From positions 1 through 60,350 of the IMG/VR virus record IMGVR_UViG_3300007735_000768: DNA of 60,350 nt, one strand, 5' to 3'. Below the pieces are notes generated by a model. It was not told the origin of the DNA, searched no databases, and was given only the letters and a program-made list of their open reading frames with translations. A program made the position numbers and the translations under genes. Shown here piece after piece: positions 7,192 through 53,091 of the stretch. Position 1 is the first letter of the stretch. Every line of letters starts with the position of its first letter. Source of the stretch: a virus.

Positions 7192-7496
7192 ATAAGCCAC
7201 CTAAATATCCTGACACAACTGGGTTCGAACCTTGTGCAACAACCGATCCCGAAATATGGTTTCCTGAACGATCAAACCAATATTTGAAAATCGCCGCGCT
7301 CGCTAAATCAATTTGTCAGACATGTCCGATAATGTTTGAGTGTGCTGAATATGCAATCCATACAGATGTGGTTGGCATATGGGGTGCGACAGATGAAAAG
7401 CAAAGACATGCAATACAAAAGGCAAGGAAAATCGAACCTTTTCGATTTGTCAAAATGACAATTGAATGGTTGGACAAAATGAACGCGAAAGCGTAA
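7188..7496 (+). CDS. WhiB-family Fe-S transcription regulator
   Basis: 102 residues if started at TTG 7188, which overlaps the previous stop; GTG 7176 is an alternative. The four cysteines follow the WhiB plan: FEPCATTDPEIWFP, then SICQTCPIMFECAEYA, binding a [4Fe-4S] cluster. GIWGAT is the WhiB turn, followed by a basic helix. WhiB proteins are confined to Actinobacteria and their phages, so this gene is the strongest host marker in the genome. Phage WhiB proteins can dominate host WhiB circuits. It probably regulates host or phage transcription through the main sigma factor. Confidence 0.93.
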   Translation: MNKPPKYPDTTGFEPCATTDPEIWFPERSNQYLKIAALAKSICQTCPIMFECAEYAIHTDVVGIWGATDEKQRHAIQKARKIEPFRFVKMTIEWLDKMNAKA

Positions 7497-8160: not shown

Positions 8161-9435
8161 ATGCCAACAAGACCCGATCTGAACGAACTAGGCACCAGCG
8201 GCTTACGCCGTAGTGGCGGTTTTATCCATGAGGAATTTTTAACTCAACTACGCGGTAAGCGCGGTCTACTTGTCTATCGTGAAATGGCAGACAACGATCC
8301 TGTTATTGGTTCAATCCTTTACGCGATCGAGAAAGTAATCCTTCGTCTTGACTGGCGCGTTGATCCATATGATGAGTCAGAGGAAGCAAAAGCAATTGCT
8401 GAATTCATCGATGAGTGCATGGAAGATATGTCCGACTCATGGGATCAAACACTTGCATCAATTCTTTCAATGCTCGTTTATGGTTTCTCATTCCATGAAA
8501 TTGTCTACAAGGTTCGCGGTGGCGATTCAAAAGACCCAAAGCGCAATTCAAAACATTCAGACGGAAAGATCGCATGGCGTAAGTTTGCAATTCGATCACA
8601 AGAAACATTAAACAACTGGATGATGGACGAAGATGGCGGTATTCAAGGATTCCGTCAAATGGATCCAACAGGCGGTGGCTTCCGAGAGATTCCTATGGAC
8701 AAAGGTTTGCTATTCCGCACCAATGTCAGCAAGAACAATCCAGAAGGTCGATCACTACTGCGTAACTCATTTAGACCTTGGTATTACAAGCGACGCATTG
8801 AAGAAATTGAAGCGATCGGTATTGAACGCGATCTAGCAGGACTTCCTGTTGCCAAAGTGCCACCTGAGTATTTATCAAGTGGTGCAACTGCGGCACAGCA
8901 AGCCGTTCTTGCAAACATTACTGAAATTGTTCAGAACATTAAGCGAAATGAACAAGAGGGCGTTATCTTCCCAATGATGTATGACGAATCTGGGAAAGAA
9001 ATGTTCTCGCTCGAATTACTTTCATCAGGTGGCTCTCGTCAATTCGATACAGACAAAGTAATTGCTCGTTACGATCAACGAATTTCAATGTCCGTTCTAT
9101 CTGACTTTATCCTTCTTGGACATGAGGCGGTTGGTTCATTCGCACTAGGTTCACAGAAGATGGATTTGTGGACAATGAGCATCGATGCGATCGCTAAGTC
9201 AATTGCAGAGGTTGTTAACCAATACGCAATTCCGCGCCTCTTAAAGTTAAACGGCATGAACACCGAACTTTGCCCTTATCTAACTTACGGACAAGTTTCC
9301 CATGTTGACCTTGGCGAACTTGCCGACTATGTTCAGAAACTAACATCGGCTGGATTGCTGATGCCTGACGAGAACTTGGAAGCATACTTGCGTGAACAGG
9401 CAAGCCTTCCACCTGCGGAGAATACGGTGATCTAA
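8161..9435 (+). CDS. Portal protein (DUF935-like)
   Basis: 424 residues. REMADNDPVIGSILYAIEKVILRLDWRVDP is the conserved portal N-terminal block; MLVYGFSFHEIVYKVR, LLFRTNVSKNNPEGRSLLRNSFRPWYYKR and LQHEAV-like GHEAVGSFALGSQKMDLW follow in the usual order. It forms the ring at one capsid vertex through which DNA passes and to which TerL docks. Next to the MuF-like gene with a 1-base overlap, as is normal for this module. Confidence 0.92.
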   Translation: MPTRPDLNELGTSGLRRSGGFIHEEFLTQLRGKRGLLVYREMADNDPVIGSILYAIEKVILRLDWRVDPYDESEEAKAIAEFIDECMEDMSDSWDQTLASILSMLVYGFSFHEIVYKVRGGDSKDPKRNSKHSDGKIAWRKFAIRSQETLNNWMMDEDGGIQGFRQMDPTGGGFREIPMDKGLLFRTNVSKNNPEGRSLLRNSFRPWYYKRRIEEIEAIGIERDLAGLPVAKVPPEYLSSGATAAQQAVLANITEIVQNIKRNEQEGVIFPMMYDESGKEMFSLELLSSGGSRQFDTDKVIARYDQRISMSVLSDFILLGHEAVGSFALGSQKMDLWTMSIDAIAKSIAEVVNQYAIPRLLKLNGMNTELCPYLTYGQVSHVDLGELADYVQKLTSAGLLMPDENLEAYLREQASLPPAENTVI

Positions 9436-11702
9436 TGTTTGTTGTCCGAAAGGCAGACAATAACTCACCGACTCCACCTCTCAATCCTGACGAAGAAAAT
9501 GTTTCAAAGATTGTTCAACAAGGCATTGGTGATCTTGAAAATGCCGCGATCAGTCGCGAAGTAAAAGATGCAATTGCCTCTCGAAACTATGAGGCGATCG
9601 TAAATGCCTTTCCTTGGGACGAAACAACCAATACTTTAAATTTAACTGCTGACGCATTTGGTAAAACAATTGCAGACAATATTGGCACAGGAATTAAGGC
9701 AGGTTTTAAAGGTCGCTTCGACTACACAGACCCACGATCAATTGCATGGGGAACTGAACAGTCAGCGCGACTTGTTACCGCGGTTACAGACGAAGTTAGA
9801 ACGCAGATTCGTGATGTTATCGGACAGGCATTTACTCAAAACAAAACAGTTGTTGAAACAGCGCGACAACTTCGAACATTTATTGGGCTTAATGCGCGTC
9901 AACAAAACTCACTTGAAAAGTTTATTCAAGCAAACATTGATGCACCTAACTTAGATAAGTTGATCATTGACTATAAGAAGCGCGCTATCAAGTATCGAGC
10001 GAACATGATCGCCCGAACAGAAATTATTACAGCAGAGGCAAATGGTCGCTACCTTGGTTGGACACAAGCGGTCGAGGCAGGATTAGCAGACCCGAAAGGC
10101 ATGAAGCGTTGGAGTGCCGCGATCAGCGAGCGCACTTGCGATACATGCGGTGCAATGAATGGTAAGTCGGTTCAATGGGATCAACCATTTCCAAATGGAG
10201 TATTTAATCCACCCGCTCATGTTATGTGCCGTTGCTCAACATCATTCCTTGATCCTGAGTCAGAGTTAGCGCAAGATTTCATGCCACCTGCCCCTGCGAT
10301 CGTTGCACCACCACGCGAGGACATTCCTGAAAAGATAACTCGGGCGATCAGAGGACTACGCGATTCAACAGCCGCAGTTGAAGCGGCTCATGCAAGCACA
10401 ACACGCGTTTCGGCATTTCAATACGATTCGACAGCAATTGAAAACCTTCATGTTGATGTCGAGAAAGTCGAATTCAATGGTGTGCCATCAACAGAATTAA
10501 GATTCAAGATGACACCTGCCGCATTAAAAGACATTGAAAAGCAAGCGGTTAAGAGTAAAGGCAAGGATTGGTTAGTCAATAAAGAAATAGCGGCGATCGA
10601 TGTCAAGACAGCAGACGGAAAGTTAACATTCTCATCACTTGATCCTGATGCTAGTCAAACATGGACTATTTTAGAACGCAGAACAGTTGGCGATTTAGCA
10701 TGGGATCAACTTGCAAGCACTAACGCAACATATACACGCTATCTTCCTGATGGAACAGCAATTCGAATTATCTCATCTGCTAGAAATGGATACGCATTTC
10801 ACGGAACAACTCGCGTGATCATTCCGGGCAAGCCAACCGCAGAAAAGATTGATGAAATCATGAGCAAGTTAGTGTCGTCTGCTCGTCACTCAACAGAGGC
10901 AGATGTTGACTTGCTAAAAGCAAACCGAATTCTCAGTATCTTCAAACCCGCAGACAAAGACCTTGCTGTAAAAGAGTTTGCAGACAAGAAAAAATATATT
11001 GATGATGTAATTGGCAAATACTGGGGCTTTAAATGGGACGATGTAACTACTGAATTAGATAGTGAAGGTAGATTGCGTTTCTTGCTTCCGCGATCAGTTG
11101 CAGAAAAGATTATGGATAAGACTTCTATTGGTCATATTAACCATTCTTTAAAGTATGGAGTTGTAGGTTCAACAGATGGTTCAACAGTTAAAAACATTGT
11201 TGATTTATTTACCAAAGATGAAAACAAAATGCTCTTGTCAACAACTAATCGTTGGACGCGAGGACTTAACTATGAAGGACAAAGTAGCGTTAAGGATGTA
11301 ACAACGGGTGGCGCGGATTATGTATTTGGTCGCCCCGTTGACAAAGTAAGGGCAGGTTCTTTTCAGAACCTATACCGACTTGAATTTGATGCCGCAGAAC
11401 TATTCCGTCGCACCGATTGGTTTGCATATGCGGCAGATAGTTATGGTGTTCGAAACCCTGCGGCAAAAACATTCTTTAAAGGATCAACAAAGTTCGATGC
11501 CCCTAACTGGTTTGGTGAATTGATGACTGGCGGTAGCAGGGCTGGCGCAGAGATCATGTTTCAAAGCAGTATAGATATGCGTTATGTAACTGCTTTCCCG
11601 ATTCAAGAGAGAATTCAGAAGCCTTTATTTGAGGCATTTTTAAAACTAGGAATTACCGAAATCAACGGCATACCGCTTGATGATTTCTTTAGAACCATAT
11701 AA
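9435..11702 (+). CDS. MuF-like head morphogenesis protein with a large C-terminal extension
   Basis: 755 residues. Residues about 190-275 are the MuF/SPP1 gp7 domain: ARTEIITAEANGRYLGW, the CDTCGAMNGK knuckle and AHVMCRCSTSF. MuF proteins are usually 250-400 residues; here about 450 more follow. The last 160 include TTGGADYVFGRPV, then GAEIMFQSSIDMRYV and LGITEINGIPLDDFF, which to me resemble the end of ADP-ribosyltransferase-like toxin modules, although I cannot confirm a catalytic triad. MuF fusions to effector domains are known in other phages and may be packaged and injected with DNA. Confidence 0.85.
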   Translation: MFVVRKADNNSPTPPLNPDEENVSKIVQQGIGDLENAAISREVKDAIASRNYEAIVNAFPWDETTNTLNLTADAFGKTIADNIGTGIKAGFKGRFDYTDPRSIAWGTEQSARLVTAVTDEVRTQIRDVIGQAFTQNKTVVETARQLRTFIGLNARQQNSLEKFIQANIDAPNLDKLIIDYKKRAIKYRANMIARTEIITAEANGRYLGWTQAVEAGLADPKGMKRWSAAISERTCDTCGAMNGKSVQWDQPFPNGVFNPPAHVMCRCSTSFLDPESELAQDFMPPAPAIVAPPREDIPEKITRAIRGLRDSTAAVEAAHASTTRVSAFQYDSTAIENLHVDVEKVEFNGVPSTELRFKMTPAALKDIEKQAVKSKGKDWLVNKEIAAIDVKTADGKLTFSSLDPDASQTWTILERRTVGDLAWDQLASTNATYTRYLPDGTAIRIISSARNGYAFHGTTRVIIPGKPTAEKIDEIMSKLVSSARHSTEADVDLLKANRILSIFKPADKDLAVKEFADKKKYIDDVIGKYWGFKWDDVTTELDSEGRLRFLLPRSVAEKIMDKTSIGHINHSLKYGVVGSTDGSTVKNIVDLFTKDENKMLLSTTNRWTRGLNYEGQSSVKDVTTGGADYVFGRPVDKVRAGSFQNLYRLEFDAAELFRRTDWFAYAADSYGVRNPAAKTFFKGSTKFDAPNWFGELMTGGSRAGAEIMFQSSIDMRYVTAFPIQERIQKPLFEAFLKLGITEINGIPLDDFFRTI

Positions 11703-11711
11703 AATAAAAGT

Positions 11712-12080
11712 ATGATCAACCGCGAAGATGTGCCACAAGCACTTATCACAACACCACCAATCTGGGGTAGCGTCATTCCTGACGAGATGCCTGTATTTGC
11801 CTTTGGTCCTTTTGTAATGCAACGCGGTAAAGATCGATTATTAGGCATGTATTTGATCGAGGAAGAACCTGATCTATTTTGTTTTTGGGATGGCGCACGA
11901 GAACGCTATTTCCAACTTGAAGATACAAAAGTAGAAGGTGATTCGATCACATTCAAAGGCGGGGCATTTCGACCAATTGCTACAACCGATTCAGACATTC
12001 TTGGATTAGGTAGTGATCGTGTTGGCTTATCACAAACCGACGCGGTAAATAGGGCATTACTCCTATTTCAGCCCGTCTAG
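11712..12080 (+). CDS. Hypothetical head-region protein, 122 aa
   Basis: Begins 10 bases after the MuF-like gene. Mixed strands with an aromatic-rich middle (EEEPDLFCFWDGARERYFQLED) and a C-terminal helix. Could be an immunity or partner protein for the MuF extension because of its position, but nothing in the sequence proves that. No family recognised. Confidence 0.65.
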   Translation: MINREDVPQALITTPPIWGSVIPDEMPVFAFGPFVMQRGKDRLLGMYLIEEEPDLFCFWDGARERYFQLEDTKVEGDSITFKGGAFRPIATTDSDILGLGSDRVGLSQTDAVNRALLLFQPV

Positions 12081-12110: not shown

Positions 12111-14342
12111 ATGCCTTGGACGATCGAAACAAAAGCACCTGACTGCAAGAGCGGCTATGCCGTTGTTGACGCAAAGGGCAAAACTGTTGGTTGCCATAAA
12201 ACCCGCGCAGATGCCTTATCTCATCAACGCGCACTTTATGTCAATGTAAAGGATGTCACTCAAAAGGACGATCCGACCGCAACCGATGTTCATGTAGACA
12301 CGATCATGCGCCCCTTTAAGATTAAGAAGCCCGCTTTATCAAAGAGCGTAGACACTTTAATTTCACAGCACGACAAACTCCATACTCAAACCGATTCCCC
12401 AAATGATGCACAACTATTCGTTCATCATGCGATCATGGAAGCGATTAGCAAGGCAGGACAAGAGGTAGATTGTTCTTGCGGTGCATGGAGTCAACCTTTA
12501 CTACTTAATAGCGTTTCAACAACCCTTGACGCGCTCGCAAAGGCAGAAAACCCTTCATTGTCACCTGTTGGTCAAATCATTCAAACAGGCATCGATCAAG
12601 GATATAAGTTTGCCGATGTTCTCCACATGCTCGATGTTGGCGGCTACATGATCGTAGTTCGACCAAAAGAAATCGTTGAAGATAGTCAATCCCCAACACT
12701 CGTTGACAAAATCAAAGGATTTATGTCAAAGGAAAAAGCAATTCCCGACTCATTTGTTCCACCACAAGCGGTTCGAGATGAAGCAAAACGCGCCCTTGAA
12801 TGGATAAAAGAAGGACATGCTGGCGCAGGATTTACCGATGTAGGACGCGCTCGCGCCGCCCAACTTGCCAATGGCGAAGGTGTTTCAAGAGAAACCCTCG
12901 CTCGTATGAAATCTTTTCTTGCTCGACATTCAGTTGATGCACAAGGTAAGGGTTATCACACAGGCGAGGCTGGGTATCCGTCACCCGGTCGGGTTGCGTT
13001 TGCCGCATGGGGTGGGTCTGCGGCAAAGACTTGGGTAGATAAACTGTTTCGACAGTATGATCTTGCAAAATCAACAGGCGAGATTGAAACAGTATTTAAA
13101 TCTAATGAAAAGCGATTCACACTCGGACCTTGGTATATCCCTGATCGACAAGATGCGCATGGGGAATGGACAGATAGCGAAGAATTACAAACTGCTCTAT
13201 GGGATTATGTGAAGTCAGGCGATCGTAGAATCCGTTTGCAACATCGTAAGAGTGTTGTTGCAGGTGAATGGGTTGAAACAATGACATGGCCGTATCCCGT
13301 AACAGTTCCAATGATGAAAGCAGACGGCACAGAAGCAGATGTTACTTATCCAAGTGGAACAGTATTCATGGGAGTGCAATGGGAACCTTGGGCATGGGAA
13401 TTAGTTAAAGCAGGAAAGTTAACTGGTTATTCGATCGGTGGTAAATCAGAAAGATTGATGGTTGATTTTCCAGAGCAAGATGATATTATTAACATGCAGG
13501 TAGCAAAACATGGAACGCACGATCAGAAAACTCATGGTCGTCGTGGTGGCATACCTCAACAAGGTGGCGCTCGCGCAGGTATGGGCGATATTAAAATCAC
13601 CGATGCAATGGCGGCTGAGATGCAAGGCGGTTCTGCCGCACCATTCTTAGTCAAAAATGAAAATGGTGATTGGGAATTCACACCTGAGCGTCAAGCATTA
13701 CATGATCGTATAGTCAAAGAATCTGTTGATGGCGTTCCAAGTTCCGCAGACCCAACATATGTTGTTATGGGTGGTGGACCCGCGGCAGGTAAATCAACAA
13801 TTCTTGAAAGCGGTCAAGTATCACTTCCAAAGAACACAGTTGAAGTCAACGCCGATACTTGCAAGACAAAACTTCCTGAATGGGATACGGCAGGTGCTAA
13901 TCGCGCTTCTGTTACTCATGCAGAATCGTCATATCTTGCAAAGCGAACACAAGCGGCGGCGTTCGAGCGTAAGCAAAACATCGTGCTTGACGGAACAGGT
14001 GACACATCTCCTGCATCTATGACAGGCAAAATCGACACAGCAAGAGCGGCAGGTTACAAAGTCGAAGCGCACTATGTCACATTGCCAACGGACATGGCTG
14101 TGGCAAACGCACTTGCACGAGGACAAAAGACAGGTCGCTTTGTTCCAGAAGAAGTGATCAGGACAACCCACGCAGGAGTATCAACAACATTTCCGCAAGT
14201 CGCGGGTAAGTTTGACTCAGTTACTCTTTACGACACAACAGTATTTGGTGCAACAAAAGTAATTGCCACAGGCGGTAAAGGTGCATTAGACATCATAGAT
14301 AAAGTCGCCTATGACGCATTTCTAGCGAAAGGTAACGCATGA
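12111..14342 (+). CDS. Capsid maturation protease (XkdF-like) fused to a zeta-toxin-like kinase
   Basis: 743 residues in modules. Residues 1-48: MPWTIETKAPDCKSGYAVV with a GCHKTRADA turn, a short domain seen ahead of actinophage proteases. About 214-315: FVPPQAVRDEAKRALEW and GYPSPGRVAFAAWGG, a phage domain of unknown role. About 334-462: XkdF-type serine protease, RFTLGPWYIPD, LQHRKS, YPSGTVFMGVQWEPWAWELVKAG and GYSIGGKS. About 465-475: KHGTHDQKTHG. About 525-743: zeta-toxin-like kinase, P-loop GGGPAAGKST at 553-563, NADTCK and NIVLDGTGDT. Protease and kinase in one chain is unusual. Confidence 0.88.
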   Translation: MPWTIETKAPDCKSGYAVVDAKGKTVGCHKTRADALSHQRALYVNVKDVTQKDDPTATDVHVDTIMRPFKIKKPALSKSVDTLISQHDKLHTQTDSPNDAQLFVHHAIMEAISKAGQEVDCSCGAWSQPLLLNSVSTTLDALAKAENPSLSPVGQIIQTGIDQGYKFADVLHMLDVGGYMIVVRPKEIVEDSQSPTLVDKIKGFMSKEKAIPDSFVPPQAVRDEAKRALEWIKEGHAGAGFTDVGRARAAQLANGEGVSRETLARMKSFLARHSVDAQGKGYHTGEAGYPSPGRVAFAAWGGSAAKTWVDKLFRQYDLAKSTGEIETVFKSNEKRFTLGPWYIPDRQDAHGEWTDSEELQTALWDYVKSGDRRIRLQHRKSVVAGEWVETMTWPYPVTVPMMKADGTEADVTYPSGTVFMGVQWEPWAWELVKAGKLTGYSIGGKSERLMVDFPEQDDIINMQVAKHGTHDQKTHGRRGGIPQQGGARAGMGDIKITDAMAAEMQGGSAAPFLVKNENGDWEFTPERQALHDRIVKESVDGVPSSADPTYVVMGGGPAAGKSTILESGQVSLPKNTVEVNADTCKTKLPEWDTAGANRASVTHAESSYLAKRTQAAAFERKQNIVLDGTGDTSPASMTGKIDTARAAGYKVEAHYVTLPTDMAVANALARGQKTGRFVPEEVIRTTHAGVSTTFPQVAGKFDSVTLYDTTVFGATKVIATGGKGALDIIDKVAYDAFLAKGNA

Positions 14343-14551
14343 CAACCGATACACCACGAATCGAACGCATGTATCTTGAAATCCTTTTGGGGATTGATCA
14401 AAAAGATTCATTACTCAAACCATTAACCGATGCTGAAAAGGCTCAATGGGGTCGCATCGACAAACAAGTGAAAGAGATTCGAGCAATGGGTGGGGAATTT
14501 GAAATCCCTAACGAAGTGCCTCAATCAAATCCAGTTGCGGTCGTTGAATGA
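14339..14551 (+). CDS. Hypothetical protein, 70 aa
   Basis: Overlaps both neighbours by 4 bases, so it is translated together with the protease-kinase fusion. Helical and acidic: MYLEILLGIDQKDSLLKPLTDAEKAQWGRIDKQVKEIRAMGG. Its position directly after a zeta-like kinase makes an antitoxin-like partner conceivable, but there is no recognisable epsilon antitoxin sequence. Function unknown. Confidence 0.65.
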   Translation: MTTDTPRIERMYLEILLGIDQKDSLLKPLTDAEKAQWGRIDKQVKEIRAMGGEFEIPNEVPQSNPVAVVE

Positions 14552-14922
14552 TCACTTTATTTAAACATGGTTCTCATGATCAGAAAACGCATGGGCATGC
14601 TGGCTTAGTGCCTCATGGTTCTGCGGGGGGCGATGCAGTTCACAGAAATTTAGGCATGCACCTTGCACCAATTAGCGCAAAGGTTGATGGGATCAAATCA
14701 AATCCAACGATCGCAGGAGATTTAGCACAAGCAAAAGTCACACTTCATGCCGCATCAATCGCACCGACTGCTATGGCGAGCGCACAAGCATTAGGCAACA
14801 CTCGTTTAGCATTATCAAGTGCGGCGCGGAAAGTTACTGGAACAAATACCCCGTTAGCCATTACACTTGCTGATATTGGCAAAGAAGCACAACGACTTTC
14901 TGACTCATTGTTGCGACCATAG
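14548..14922 (+). CDS. Head-associated protein starting with an HDQKTHG motif
   Basis: 124 residues starting MITLFKHGSHDQKTHGHAG. The KHG-T/S-HDQKTHG block is also present in the preceding protease fusion just before its kinase. The remainder is Ala-rich and helical (AQAKVTLHAASIAPTAMASAQALG). This His-rich block recurs in actinophage head proteins. It may be a maturation cleavage or packaging signal, which is inference. Confidence 0.7.
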   Translation: MITLFKHGSHDQKTHGHAGLVPHGSAGGDAVHRNLGMHLAPISAKVDGIKSNPTIAGDLAQAKVTLHAASIAPTAMASAQALGNTRLALSSAARKVTGTNTPLAITLADIGKEAQRLSDSLLRP

Positions 14923-14934
14923 GAACGGACGATC

Positions 14935-15438
14935 ATGGAAACTGAATGGACATTAGTTCAACCTTCAATGCCTGAAATGGAAATGGAAGAAGTCGTAGAC
15001 CTTCAAAAGAGCCTACGCACACTCCTTGCCAACACAGTAACTATTTCTTTACGCGCTCAGGGATACCATTGGAATGTTCGCGGTATTCATTTCGCCGCAT
15101 ACCATAAGTTATTTGGTGACATCTATGAGGACATTCATGAATCGATCGATCCAACAGCAGAGTGGTTGCGCAAATTAGGTTACGAAGCACCATACACACT
15201 TGGCGAGTTCATGAATGATCGCGACATTGAAGAACCGATCAAGCAGATTAGTTTGGCTATGCAGATTCAAACATTACTGCAAGGCATCGAGCAGTTAGAA
15301 GAATGCACAGAACATTGCTTAGAGGTTGCAACAGCCGAGGACGAACAAGGTCTGATCAATTTCCTTGCAGGTCGCCTAGACATGCTTGAAAAGTGGGAAT
15401 GGCAATTGAACACATCTGTAAATGAAGGGTTTATGTAA
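14935..15438 (+). CDS. Dps-like ferritin
   Basis: 167 residues of the Dps/ferritin four-helix fold. LRTLLANTVTISLRAQGYHWNVRG starts helix A; HKLFGDIYEDIHESIDPTAEWLRKLG carries the inter-subunit ferroxidase pattern of Dps (His of HWN, a second His, Asp and Glu of SIDPTAE). TLLQGIEQLEECTEHCLE and GRLDMLEKWEWQL give the other helices. Dps proteins oxidise and store iron and protect DNA. Inside the head gene cluster, it may be expressed late and perhaps packaged. Confident on fold; the role in the phage is inferred. Confidence 0.9.
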   Translation: METEWTLVQPSMPEMEMEEVVDLQKSLRTLLANTVTISLRAQGYHWNVRGIHFAAYHKLFGDIYEDIHESIDPTAEWLRKLGYEAPYTLGEFMNDRDIEEPIKQISLAMQIQTLLQGIEQLEECTEHCLEVATAEDEQGLINFLAGRLDMLEKWEWQLNTSVNEGFM

Positions 15439-18507: not shown

Positions 18508-19485
18508 ATGCCACAACCAAATGTAAATAGCACACACATTGATGCTATTCTCACAAACATTTCTGTTGCTTATCTACAAAAGCAGGACAACTTTATCGCT
18601 GATAAGGTTTTCCCTGTAATTCCAGTAGATAAGAAATCGAACAAGTATTTCGTCTACACAAAGAATGACTGGTTCCGCGATGAGGCACAACGCCGCGCCG
18701 ATGCAACCGAGTCTGCTGGTAGCGGATACTCACTCACAACAGCAACTTACAACACAGATGTCTTTGCATTCCACAAGGATGTAGGCGATCAGACAGTTGC
18801 TAACTCAGATGCACCATTGAACCCACTTCGCGAAGCCGCAGAATTCGTTACACAGCGTCTATTGCTTCGTCGTGAATTGCAGTTCGTATCTGACTTCTTC
18901 ACCACAGGTGTATGGGGAACAGATGTAACAGGTGTTGCAGGTTCACCATCAACAGGCGAAACAAAGCAGTGGTCAGATTACTCAGCATCAGACCCAATCA
19001 ATGACATCGAAGCGGCAAAGGCGTCAATCCTTTCAACAACAGGTATCGAGGCAAACACACTCGTTCTTGGTTACGATGTATTCCGTCAGTTGAAGAATCA
19101 CCCTGACCTAGTTGATCGCATCAAGTACACATCTTCACAGACCATCACAACCGACATGCTCGCGGCAATGTTTGACATTCCACGCGTTATGGTTGCAAAG
19201 GCTGTAAAGGCAACAAACAACGAAGGTGCCGCTGGCGCATACTCATTTGCTTATGGCAAGGGCGCGCTACTTTGCAATGTCGCAACAAACCCAGGAGTTC
19301 TAACTCCTTCTGCTGGATACCAGTTCTCATGGACTGGCGTTTCAGGCGGTCTTGGTGCAAACATTGGAACATCTTCATTCCGTATGGAGTCAATCAAGGC
19401 AACTCGTGTCGAGGCTGAAATGGCATTTGACAACAAGGTAGTTGCTAACGATCTTGGCTACTTCTGGAACACAATCGTTGCTTAA
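18508..19485 (+). CDS. Major capsid protein
   Basis: 325 residues. The block YLQKQDNFIADKVFPVIPVDKKSNKYFVYTKNDWFRDEAQRRA is the N-terminal arm and start of the HK97-type fold seen in many environmental phage capsid proteins; EFVTQRLLLRRELQFVSDFF is the long spine helix; TLVLGYDVFRQLKNHPDLVDRIKYT is the conserved P/A domain segment. Strong GGGGAG ribosome site, and a terminator follows, consistent with very high expression. It forms the icosahedral shell with the protein at 18101. Confidence 0.92.
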   Translation: MPQPNVNSTHIDAILTNISVAYLQKQDNFIADKVFPVIPVDKKSNKYFVYTKNDWFRDEAQRRADATESAGSGYSLTTATYNTDVFAFHKDVGDQTVANSDAPLNPLREAAEFVTQRLLLRRELQFVSDFFTTGVWGTDVTGVAGSPSTGETKQWSDYSASDPINDIEAAKASILSTTGIEANTLVLGYDVFRQLKNHPDLVDRIKYTSSQTITTDMLAAMFDIPRVMVAKAVKATNNEGAAGAYSFAYGKGALLCNVATNPGVLTPSAGYQFSWTGVSGGLGANIGTSSFRMESIKATRVEAEMAFDNKVVANDLGYFWNTIVA

Positions 19486-50804: not shown

Positions 50805-51233
50805 ATGACACAAACAGATCACTTGACCGTTCTTGGTCAAAGAGTAGAAGGATCACTAACAAAAGATCAGTTGGAATTTTTTCCAGCACCCGAGCATGTT
50901 GATCATGTCAAGTTTGAGACGCGTGAATTCACTTCATTGTGTCCTGTAACCGATCAACCCGATCTTTACACAGTAATAATTGAATACTCACCTAACGGGC
51001 GTTGCGTTGAGTCAAAGTCACTCAAGTTATATCTTGGGCAATGGCGAAACAAAGGCATCTTTGGCGAGGCGATCACAGCACAGATTGCATCTGATTTATT
51101 TGAAGTATTGGACGCGGGTTGGGTTGAAGTTAAGACGATTCAGCAAGCGCGTGGCGGTTTGGTTATGACAGCAGTTGCTTCACGATCAAAGGGTTACAAG
51201 TTGGAAGATGGAGAGTTGGTGCCAAATGCCTAA
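50805..51233 (+). CDS. queF: preQ0 reductase (QueF)
   Basis: 142 residues. EFTSLCPVTDQPDLYTV carries the catalytic Cys and Asp (C-x6-D), and ESKSLKLYLG is the NADPH-binding QueF motif; YSPNGRCVES and a helical IFGEAITAQI complete the tunnelling fold. It reduces 7-cyano-7-deazaguanine (preQ0) to preQ1 with NADPH. The intact NADPH motif argues against the amidino-transferring QueF-like enzymes. This predicts that the DNA base is preQ1 and not preQ0. Confidence 0.92.
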   Translation: MTQTDHLTVLGQRVEGSLTKDQLEFFPAPEHVDHVKFETREFTSLCPVTDQPDLYTVIIEYSPNGRCVESKSLKLYLGQWRNKGIFGEAITAQIASDLFEVLDAGWVEVKTIQQARGGLVMTAVASRSKGYKLEDGELVPNA

Positions 51234-51939
51234 AGCCGCAGTTGTCGCATCAGGCGGCATGGATAGTGCAACACTCGCATGGCATTACTACTCAAAAGGC
51301 TATGACATTCATCTGATCGGTTTTAATTATGGTCAGCGACATGTCAAAGAACTTGATTATCTACAAAAGATCGCGTTTGCAATTGAAGCAGATTTCACGA
51401 TCGTAGACATGGGATTCATGGCAGATTTGCTTCATGGATCATCATTGACAACTGACGGGGGCGAAGTTCCTGATGGGCATTACCGAGAAGAAACAATGAG
51501 AGCAACTGTTGTGCCTAATCGAAATGCGATCATGTTGTCTATTGCAACGGGCATAGCGGTCGCGGAACAATGTGAAGTTGTGGCAACTGGAATCCATTCA
51601 GGCGATCACTACATCTATCCTGATTGCCGTCCGTCATTCTTTGAACCTCTACAAGCCGCGTTTAAGGCTGGAACAGAAGGACATTCATTGCCTGATTTCC
51701 GTCTTGAAGCACCATTTATCGATAAGACAAAAGCAGACATTGCGGCTTATGGAAATGAATTAGGTGTTGATTACACAATTACTTGGTCATGCTACAAGGG
51801 CGGCGAAGAACATTGTGGTCGTTGTGGAACATGCGTTGAACGCATTGAAGCATTTATTGACGCAGGAGTTAAAGACCCAACCGATTATGCAGAGGGCATT
51901 GAATTCGCGCTCGCCGAAATCGAAAAGCGCCGTGTTTAG
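51226..51939 (+). CDS. queC: 7-cyano-7-deazaguanine synthase (QueC)
   Basis: 237 residues from ATG 51226, 8 bases inside queF. VVASGGMDSATLAWH is the PP-loop for ATP, GFNYGQRH follows, ATVVPNRNAIML is the conserved central block, and SCYKGGEEHCGRCGTCVER provides the zinc-binding cysteines. It converts 7-carboxy-7-deazaguanine to preQ0 with ATP and ammonia. Overlaps queD by 8 bases. Confidence 0.95.
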   Translation: MPKAAVVASGGMDSATLAWHYYSKGYDIHLIGFNYGQRHVKELDYLQKIAFAIEADFTIVDMGFMADLLHGSSLTTDGGEVPDGHYREETMRATVVPNRNAIMLSIATGIAVAEQCEVVATGIHSGDHYIYPDCRPSFFEPLQAAFKAGTEGHSLPDFRLEAPFIDKTKADIAAYGNELGVDYTITWSCYKGGEEHCGRCGTCVERIEAFIDAGVKDPTDYAEGIEFALAEIEKRRV

Positions 51940-52375
51940 ATCCACAAAGCGTTATGGTCATGAAGTAGGTTTCAGTTGCGCGTTCCGTCAATGGAAAGCC
52001 GACTCTCATTGCAACCGACTTCATGGCTATGCGCTTGCCTTCACATTCACTTTTGAGGCAACCGAACTTGATCATCGCAATTGGGTAGTTGACTTTGGCG
52101 GTTTGAAAGCATTGAAGAATATGCTGGAAAAAACCTTTGATCATAAAACAGTTGTAGCGGAAGATGATCCTTATTTATTTGAATTACAGAATCTTGATCG
52201 ATTAGGAGTTCTTGATCTTGTTGTGCTTCCTGCAACAGGATGCGAGAAATTCGCGGCACTTGCCTACGAACTTGCAATGGAAGTTTTAAAGCGTGACGGA
52301 TTCTACCCGCGTTGTCGAGTTGTGAAAGTAGAGGTAGCAGAACATGGCGCGAATTCTGCAATTTACATCCCATGA
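51932..52375 (+). CDS. queD: 6-carboxytetrahydropterin synthase-like (QueD), divergent zinc site
   Basis: 147 residues from GTG 51932. FSCAFRQWKADSHCNRLHGYALAFTF aligns with the QueD FxAAHRL...CxxLHGH region: Cys and one His are kept, but the first zinc His is Phe and the last His of HGH is Tyr. FDHKTVVAEDDP and KVEVAEHGANSA keep the Asp-His and Glu. The same HGY and AFRQW forms occur, to my memory, in other phages, so it is a phage branch. It should make 6-carboxytetrahydropterin. Confidence 0.88.
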   Translation: MFRSTKRYGHEVGFSCAFRQWKADSHCNRLHGYALAFTFTFEATELDHRNWVVDFGGLKALKNMLEKTFDHKTVVAEDDPYLFELQNLDRLGVLDLVVLPATGCEKFAALAYELAMEVLKRDGFYPRCRVVKVEVAEHGANSAIYIP

Positions 52376-53091
52376 CAACTGAAACGCCCAACAGAGAGCG
52401 TTGGGTGAATATCAACGAAGTATTTGGACCCACAATCCAAGGCGAAGGTATTCACACAGGGCAACGCGTCGGATTTGTTCGATTAGCAGGGTGCAACCTT
52501 GCATGCTCATGGTGTGATACGCCTTATTCATGGGATTGGGACAGATTTGATCGTAAAGAGGAATCTCATAAAACGCTGATCAGCGAACTTGCTACTCAGA
52601 TAAAAAACATGGGCGTTGATCGCATCATCTTGACTGGTGGTGAACCTATGTTGCAACAAACGGCAATATGGGATTTAAAAGCATCGATCGGTGACATAGA
52701 CATAGACATTGAAACCAATGGAACGATCTTGCCTAACATCAAAACGATCAACGCGGTAGACATGTTCTGCGTTAGCCCGAAACTTGCCCATGGTGGCGAT
52801 TTGCTGGAAGTTCGACGAACCAAAGCACTTGAAGCCTTTTCATACATAGCGGGGGAAGGTCGAGCGATATTCAAGTTTGTTTGCCAATGGGCATCTGACT
52901 TTGATGAAATAGACGAGATCATTACTCAATTCAAAATCCCGCGCAACGCAGTTTGGATTATGCCCGAAGGCGTGACACAACTTGCTCAAATGGAAACAAT
53001 GCACCGACTCGCAGATGAGGCGATCAATAGAGGTTTCAATATCTCACCACGCCTTCATGTGCTTATTTGGAATACGGAACGAGGACGCTAA
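52372..53091 (+). CDS. queE: 7-carboxy-7-deazaguanine synthase (QueE, radical SAM)
   Basis: 239 residues; ATG overlaps the queD stop. GPTIQGEGIHTGQRVGFVRLAGCNLACSWCDTPYSW has the CX3CX2C cluster motif and the QueE-specific start, and ILTGGEPMLQQ the GGE motif for S-adenosylmethionine. It contracts the pterin ring to 7-carboxy-7-deazaguanine. Confidence 0.95.
   Translation: MTTETPNRERWVNINEVFGPTIQGEGIHTGQRVGFVRLAGCNLACSWCDTPYSWDWDRFDRKEESHKTLISELATQIKNMGVDRIILTGGEPMLQQTAIWDLKASIGDIDIDIETNGTILPNIKTINAVDMFCVSPKLAHGGDLLEVRRTKALEAFSYIAGEGRAIFKFVCQWASDFDEIDEIITQFKIPRNAVWIMPEGVTQLAQMETMHRLADEAINRGFNISPRLHVLIWNTERGR

Follow-up and report, generated by a model that had tools for sequence, protein, structure and literature searches.

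A prohead protease joined to a zeta-type kinase by a recurrent peptide tag in a phage head-gene cluster

Our study concerns the viral record IMGVR_UViG_3300007735_000768, analyzed over its positions 1 to 60,350 (60,350 nucleotides, hereafter the window), in which an XkdF-type prohead protease and a zeta-type kinase are encoded in one uninterrupted reading frame of 743 codons (12111-14342, plus strand). The fusion is real and recurrent, and the peptide that joins its two enzymes, KHGTHDQKTHG, is one of at least three types of tag (HG, GRF and HPFRGN) that stand before many unrelated modules in the head regions of phages. The sharing of such a tag by many toxin-like domains, often beside a probable antidote, suggests a common way of loading weapons into virus heads. 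For the fusion itself we give an even chance to the reading that the sequence brings to mind, in which the open reading frame (ORF) would encode an effector loaded into the virion and accompanied by an antidote, with the protease acting as carrier and perhaps also as cutter.

The protease-kinase fusion

The 743-residue ORF opens with an N-terminal region (residues 1-215, 12111-12755) that has tblastn matches in 24 of the collected loci, followed by a domain resembling positions 164-262 of phrog_2859 (residues 216-314, 12756-13052), which is matched in 61. The XkdF/Peptidase_S78_2 prohead protease domain occupies residues 326-448 (13086-13454; Pfam E 3.6e-11); the sequence V464-A465-K466 then leads into the HG tag K466-G476 (13500-13538), with a predicted cut after K466, and the zeta-type kinase module fills residues 488-743 (13572-14339), with its Walker A motif at 554-563. 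All these parts lie on the plus strand. Within the ORF the motif KHGTHDQKTHG starts at residue 466, GGGPAAGKST at 554, VNADTCK at 579 and VLDGTGDT at 625. The Pfam Zeta_toxin profile (PF06414) covers residues 542-707 with E 1.9e-27 and 96.5 bits, against a curated cut-off of 22.3, and the protease belongs to XkdF (PF14550) by its profile match and by the conserved His378 and Ser441, catalytic residues kept in 69 of 69 aligned domains. These domains and active-site residues bear out the initial annotation, made from the letters of the window alone, in its description of a protease joined in one frame to a complete zeta-like P-loop kinase; it had missed the N-terminal region, the phrog_2859-type domain, a 70-residue ORF downstream, and the other tagged modules and further settings of the kinase described below. 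The ORF sits among head genes, with a portal and a MuF gene before it and the major head protein after it. It has no Pfam match to a MuF domain, MuF being encoded in a separate ORF with an extension of its own.

A search for the same fusion in other phages turned up two examples among the collected loci (designated L with a number). L003 has the same architecture in 756 residues, with 75% identity in the best segment, and a single 488-residue ORF of L229 combines XkdF (33-153), a tag of another type and Zeta_toxin (292-459). Because both carry protease, tag and kinase, the 743-residue fusion is not an artefact: an assembly error, a frameshift or a chimera is ruled out, and with them the sequencing error joining two genes that had been envisaged at the outset. 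Judged from its sequence, the fusion is probably functional.

The kinase module retains the residues expected of an active enzyme of its class. Among the distinct kinase modules, 19 of 19 have the Walker lysine Lys561, Asp582, Asp627 and Arg670, and 18 of 19 have Arg676, so that an inactive P-loop in relatives, which the initial annotation had allowed for, is likewise ruled out. By alignment, Lys561 and Asp582 correspond to what we take to be K46 and D67 in zeta numbering. In the model zeta toxin K46, D67, E116, R158 and R171 are essential (PMC6356619). The positions of Arg670 and Arg676 suggest that they are the counterparts of R158 and R171. The predicted structure of the kinase has block predicted local distance difference test (pLDDT) values of 72-94 over residues 491-740, and its closest fold matches are nearly tied: AvrRxo1-ORF1 (Z 18.9, root-mean-square deviation (rmsd) 3.5, 231 residues aligned), the zeta toxin 3q8x (Z 18.1, rmsd 3.2, 214 aligned) and PezT 2p5t (Z 17.1, rmsd 3.3, 206 aligned), with polynucleotide kinases next at Z 12.9. 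AvrRxo1 acts on NAD, and with zeta toxin and AvrRxo1-ORF1 tied the fold does not settle the substrate. The full-length model is poor outside the kinase, the protease included, and therefore allows nothing special to be inferred on the tag.

Kinase matches occur in 22 loci, one of them (L051) cut off, and a tag stands ahead of the kinase in 17 of the 22 (assigned partly by eye, and with L047 and L183 as variants). The settings differ from locus to locus: in L010, L012, L015 and L016 the kinase is a stand-alone tagged protein, and in L144 and L060 a domain that appears ParB-like by eye is followed by the tag and then the kinase. None of the three tag types lies ahead of the kinase in L146, L046, L022 and L023; the first of these is Cyanophage PSS2, whose gp30 is a MuF-zeta protein without tag.

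Peptide tags before exchangeable modules

The KHGTHDQKTHG linker, to which the initial annotation had drawn attention as a place where the kinase might be cut free, turns out to be a recurrent tag in phage head-region ORFs. An exact DNA pattern for KHGxHDQKTHG matched 99 viral-contig stretches, often 2 to 5 times each, and the profile from 138 non-redundant sequence segments reads [VILMF]-x-K-H-G-x-H-[DN]-Q-x-[TS]-H-G-x-W-A, in which K, H, H, Q and H are fixed at 1.00 and beyond which the segments have no common sequence. At comparable sites, relatives of the window carry the GRF tag, K-[FY]NPxH..xGRF[AT]-SGG, or the HPFRGN tag, KGDxPGHPFRGNQY. A further sequence, SEAGRxAAxxRW, is present once each in L022, L023, L181 and L192 and 0 times in reversed ORFs, and may be a fourth type. 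The ORFs of the fetched loci, which were partly chosen for the tag, total 1,875,716 residues; in them a regular expression for HG gave 538 matches, against 3 in reversed and 1 in shuffled sequence, so that chance is no explanation for the tag; the GRF and HPFRGN expressions gave 89 and 232 matches, with 0 and 0 in reversed ORFs. Of 487 distinct HG matches, 484 have a lysine immediately ahead of the tag, as do 72 of 72 GRF matches; some of these matches were selected with patterns requiring Lys (the HPFRGN selection required none). The residue at P3 is V, I, L, M or F in 461 of the 487 HG matches.

A given locus tends to keep to one type of tag. With the seeds left out, HG-seeded loci held 296 HG, 5 GRF and 0 HPFRGN tags, GRF-seeded loci 22 GRF, 0 HG and 1 HPFRGN, and HPFRGN-seeded loci 83 HPFRGN, 0 GRF and 1 HG, and among loci found through the protease alone 30 of 44 have tags, of one type each (16 HPFRGN, 10 HG, 4 GRF). 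L182 is an exception to this rule, as is L243, where the HG match is probably spurious. The modules behind the tags are less constant in their partners, and of the 13 largest clusters of such modules 8 occur with more than one tag type.

Codon usage within the tag bears on how it is maintained. Where their flanks are unrelated, HG tags of one locus have 51.6% of their codons in common (68 pairs, 0 identical), and tags of different loci 50.0% (7999 pairs). As sharing within a locus is about the same as between loci, what is conserved in the HG tag is its protein sequence and not a copied stretch of DNA, and a DNA-level repeat or gene-conversion product is ruled out for this type. Conservation at the protein level is compatible with a reading factor inside each phage, and a phage-specific factor that recognizes the HG tag would fit these data. 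Glycine-rich stretches do come after many tags and the modules are plainly shuffled, as they would be if the tag, recognized by no factor, only linked the modules flexibly or remained from their shuffling, but we regard this explanation as unlikely, since a linker would not keep its residues, here invariant at five positions, and DNA copying would keep the codons, where in fact each locus holds to one type while synonymous sites vary freely.

The modules that follow the tags in phage head-region ORFs include ADP-ribosyltransferases, alarmone synthetases and zeta kinases, and they look like the effectors described for polyvalent proteins and MuF toxins (PMC5512222, PMC5576092). The post-tag module of L053 matches ADPrib_exo_Tox with E 1.7e-7. 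The tagged alarmone-synthetase module has no match in a Pfam scan; in a profile search of the PDB it matches 8vx3, SaSAS, with E 4.9e-20, and it also matches MuF head proteins of Streptococcus phages at their C-terminus. Zincin and GNAT domains in tagged ORFs are weak assignments or made by eye, the Pfam hints of SprT-like and GNAT domains lying below the curated cut-offs. In L054 the tag comes after a MuF domain (by eye). The window holds a second HG tag, at the N-terminus of a 124-residue ORF (14548-14922, plus strand; L4-F5-K6, tag to G16), and thus a non-enzymatic small protein also bears the tag; the L003 homologue carries a variant, KHLAGKHNQHTHAHAG.

We considered whether the tag is a feature of bacteria or prophages at large, and rejected this: a looser pattern matched 29 genome-contig stretches, of which, going by the frames listed, L173 convinces and L176 may be genuine, the others appearing to have matched by chance or in the wrong frame. 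L173 (from 1059) is a 7-kb contig of an Actinobacteria metagenome-assembled genome with an HG-tagged 253-residue ORF and an XkdF ORF; it probably comes from a phage and gives a hint of the group of hosts. A blastn search with the L206 stretch gave no isolate match. The string 'HDQKTHG', which represents one tag type, is absent from the literature text searched, a body of text that excludes figures and most subscription journals, so the tag may be known elsewhere; other literature searches, judged by their listings, gave no evident description of it.

Candidate antidotes and a proposed model for effector loading

Directly behind the kinase, and overlapping its stop by 4 bases, lies an ORF of 70 residues (14339-14551, plus strand) that is a probable antidote of the kinase. 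Members of its family (64-70 residues, family A) were matched in 9 loci on 6 contigs, and in 9 of these 9 they overlap or abut the stop of the kinase; tblastn gave no match in any other collected locus. The 70-residue protein is modeled as a two-helix hairpin.

A different arrangement is seen in phages with the HG tag in which the protease is a separate ORF right after the effector ORF, and here the N-terminal domain of the protease varies with that effector. An alarmone synthetase precedes 18 of the 72 distinct XkdF ORFs and a zeta kinase 8; the other 46 come after neither. An N-terminal domain that we call R is present in 18 of 18 proteases after the synthetase and another, B, in 5 of 8 after the kinase; in L022 and L023 a small separate ORF (C) takes the place of B. 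Neither R nor B is ever found with the effector of the other (Fisher 3e-5, for loci that are related and profiles built partly from the same sequences). Domain R resembles IapK, with a profile score of 26.3 that 0 of 100 column shuffles reach (maximum 18.9) and a mean alignment score of 32.4 versus 23.2 with a standard deviation of 0.9 (0/500). IapK neutralizes MuF-Apk2 and its gene lies directly after that of MuF-Apk2 in prophages (PMC12226406). By shuffled Smith-Waterman comparison A and C are alike, as are B and C (0/300 each), and R has no likeness to A or B. A direct link of the 70-residue ORF to IapK was sought and not found. In four loci (L053 6744, L109 7611, L117 9463 and L063 1173, given as coding-strand ORF starts) XkdF is fused directly behind a ParB-like DGHHTW domain, and the ORF upstream of these has no alarmone-synthetase or zeta match.

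The likely action of the kinase can be weighed against these partners. A somewhat doubtful alternative is that it serves early in infection as a counter-defence or repair enzyme on a nucleotide signal, an RNA end or an NAD-like metabolite, the small ORF being a folding partner. The near tie of the fold between zeta toxin and AvrRxo1-ORF1, with polynucleotide kinases next, would accommodate this, as would the Arthrobacter phage Laroye, which joins XkdF to a domain that appears by eye to be 2H-phosphoesterase-like (HVTLAY...HITVAY); 2H-phosphoesterases are enzymes of the type that cleaves RNA ends or signals. The 60,350-base record, which may be incomplete, also has no match to an integrase or resolvase (PF00589, PF00239), and a toxin used between lysogens is therefore not suggested. 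Against this alternative, the small ORF moves together with the kinase, and sister phages have, as the neighboring type of module, members of an established toxin family for which an immunity protein is known. It is more improbable still, indeed very unlikely, that the fused kinase acts unpackaged and late in the producing cell, for example to weaken the wall ahead of lysis or to keep out other phages. The ORF is surrounded by head genes and presumably expressed late, and zeta toxins can stop wall synthesis (PMC6356619); yet fusion to a prohead protease, and a tag shared with the MuF-containing ORF of L054, favor a location in the head, and an antidote made alongside would blunt the effect.

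For the virion-loaded effector to which we give an even chance, we propose the following course of events. The XkdF protease, as a component of the prohead, would carry the kinase into the assembling head, while the 70-residue protein would bind the kinase in the producing cell and keep it harmless. The tag would be an address or a signal for processing that a head factor specific to the phage reads, and the hydrophobic-x-Lys sequence before it (V464-A465-K466) is a likely cut site that would free the kinase. The kinase could then enter the next host with the DNA and phosphorylate a small metabolite, such as a UDP-sugar or an NAD-like nucleotide, and so slow growth or counter a defence. Where the effector is encoded just upstream, as in sister phages, the protease with its effector-matched N-terminal domain, which is similar to IapK in the case of alarmone synthetases, would perhaps provide a bridge through an immunity domain. 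Among tagged contigs, the only ones compared, XkdF was found in 30 of 50 (15 of 18 HG-seeded, 8 of 14 GRF-seeded, 3 of 14 HPFRGN-seeded and 4 of 4 protease-found).

Several observations weigh against this proposal. The position of the essential zeta residue E116 is occupied by Asp627 in the window. The model of the 70-residue protein has no fold match in the PDB and no detectable likeness to a solved antitoxin, and IapK has no likeness to family A, to which this protein belongs, or to B. Families A and B show no significant direct likeness (Smith-Waterman maximum p 0.28, mean-score p 0.053) and are linked only through the C ORFs of L022 and L023, and profile comparison of the small ORF families gives a weak match of A with C and none of A with B or of B with C. 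The protease of L047, which follows a zeta kinase, has an N-terminal domain of neither type. As for the tag, a lysine five places ahead of GH is present in only 114 of 193 HPFRGN matches, and L047 and L084 clearly mix types, with HG and GRF inside one 983-residue ORF. The 20 tagged contigs without XkdF, which may be fragments, offer in its stead one Clp-type protease and one sub-threshold S78 match, and the tag is thus not strictly tied to a recognized prohead protease.

More tentatively, we suggest a general scheme, possible though short of probable, in which the tags constitute a peptide address code of tailed phages. Each phage lineage would keep one tag type, HG, GRF or HPFRGN behind hydrophobic-x-Lys, on changeable toxins and head proteins, which its own head machinery would load and cut, and the prohead protease would act as a loading chaperone, either through fusion to the toxin, as in the window, L003 and L229, or through an N-terminal domain conferring immunity to it (IapK-like or zeta-linked); toxin and antidote would enter the head together and be parted by the protease at maturation. 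If this is true, the payload of a phage head is sorted by means of a short tag that can be exchanged, and toxins are accompanied by a capsid protease, in some cases together with their antidotes and in others without them; this would explain how one phage can hold several toxins without harm to its producer. It would also supply a sequence rule for finding virion-delivered effectors and simple tags for loading proteins into phage heads, and the old question of what is done by the enzyme domains that MuF and other head proteins carry would become testable.

Comparison with known systems and the surrounding genes

The arrangement in the window and its sister phages has counterparts in several known systems. 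In the MuF polymorphic toxins of prophages (Apk2/IapK, Aph1) a head protein bears a C-terminal toxin with immunity genes behind it (PMC5576092, PMC12226406), and their alarmone-synthetase module recurs, along with a domain like IapK, in sister phages of the window. As a candidate for the immunity gene beside the toxin that marks these systems, the window has the co-occurring 70-residue ORF, the IapK-like domain being confined to the sister phages. The window differs from the MuF toxins in that the carrier of its kinase is the XkdF protease and a peptide tag joins carrier and effector, in that the immunity-like domain of sister phages is fused to the protease, and in the absence from its record, possibly incomplete, of the integrase and resolvase matches mentioned above. 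Zeta-like kinases fused to MuF have been described among the phage polyvalent proteins (PMC5512222), and a head-associated zeta kinase is therefore not new in itself. Those proteins resemble the fusion in being multi-domain and probably virion-delivered and in including the same class of kinase; XkdF has 0 occurrences in the text of that report, and its passages on these proteins name no tag. Within the literature searched, three features appear to be additions: the use of a prohead protease as the carrier, the types of tag, and the matching of the protease N-terminal domain to the effector.

The kinase resembles epsilon/zeta and PezAT in its fold, in catalytic residues placed by motif or position and in having a small gene beside it as a candidate partner; it departs from them in its fusion to a phage head protein, in the downstream position and 70-residue length of this candidate, and in the aspartate in place of Glu116. 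Short N-terminal capsid targeting sequences load cargo into the heads of T4 and P1 (PMC9024508), and several head proteins of SPN3US share the motif A-x-E at P3-P1 of the sites of its prohead protease (PMC10052503), which the hydrophobic-x-Lys ahead of the tags resembles in form. Unlike these signals, the tags are longer, fall into several types, occur also between modules within one ORF and are known from sequence only. The Laroyevirus gp18 of Arthrobacter phages likewise follows a portal and a MuF gene and has an XkdF domain about 61% identical to that of the window, but it bears the 2H-like domain (by eye) at its N-terminus, lacks a C-terminal kinase and has no tag that we could find. Laroye gp18 (5296-6417 of L147) is annotated as an RNA ligase, a doubtful name that phrog_14859 also bears.

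Upstream of the fusion, on the plus strand, the window encodes a Mu-type portal protein (8161-9435; Portal_Mu E 4.1e-45) and a 755-residue MuF head protein (9435-11702; Phage_Mu_F E 3.4e-14) with a C-terminal extension of about 465 residues, for which profile search gave no PDB match. A 122-residue ORF (11712-12080, plus strand) accompanies this extension as a candidate partner or immunity protein: the two are found together in 9 loci including the window, 100 MuF-matching loci lack both, and L184 has the extension without the ORF. Together they look like a second effector-immunity pair. Downstream, a Dps/ferritin-like protein (14935-15438; Ferritin E 4.6e-14) is encoded after the effector genes and before the major head protein (18508-19485, plus strand; phrog_1005 E 5e-98). 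A WhiB protein is encoded at 7233-7412 (E 7.9e-16) and presumably points to an actinobacterial host. At 51175-53091, three neighboring ORFs resemble by eye the 7-cyano-7-deazaguanine genes queC, queD and queE, which suggests that the phage DNA is modified.

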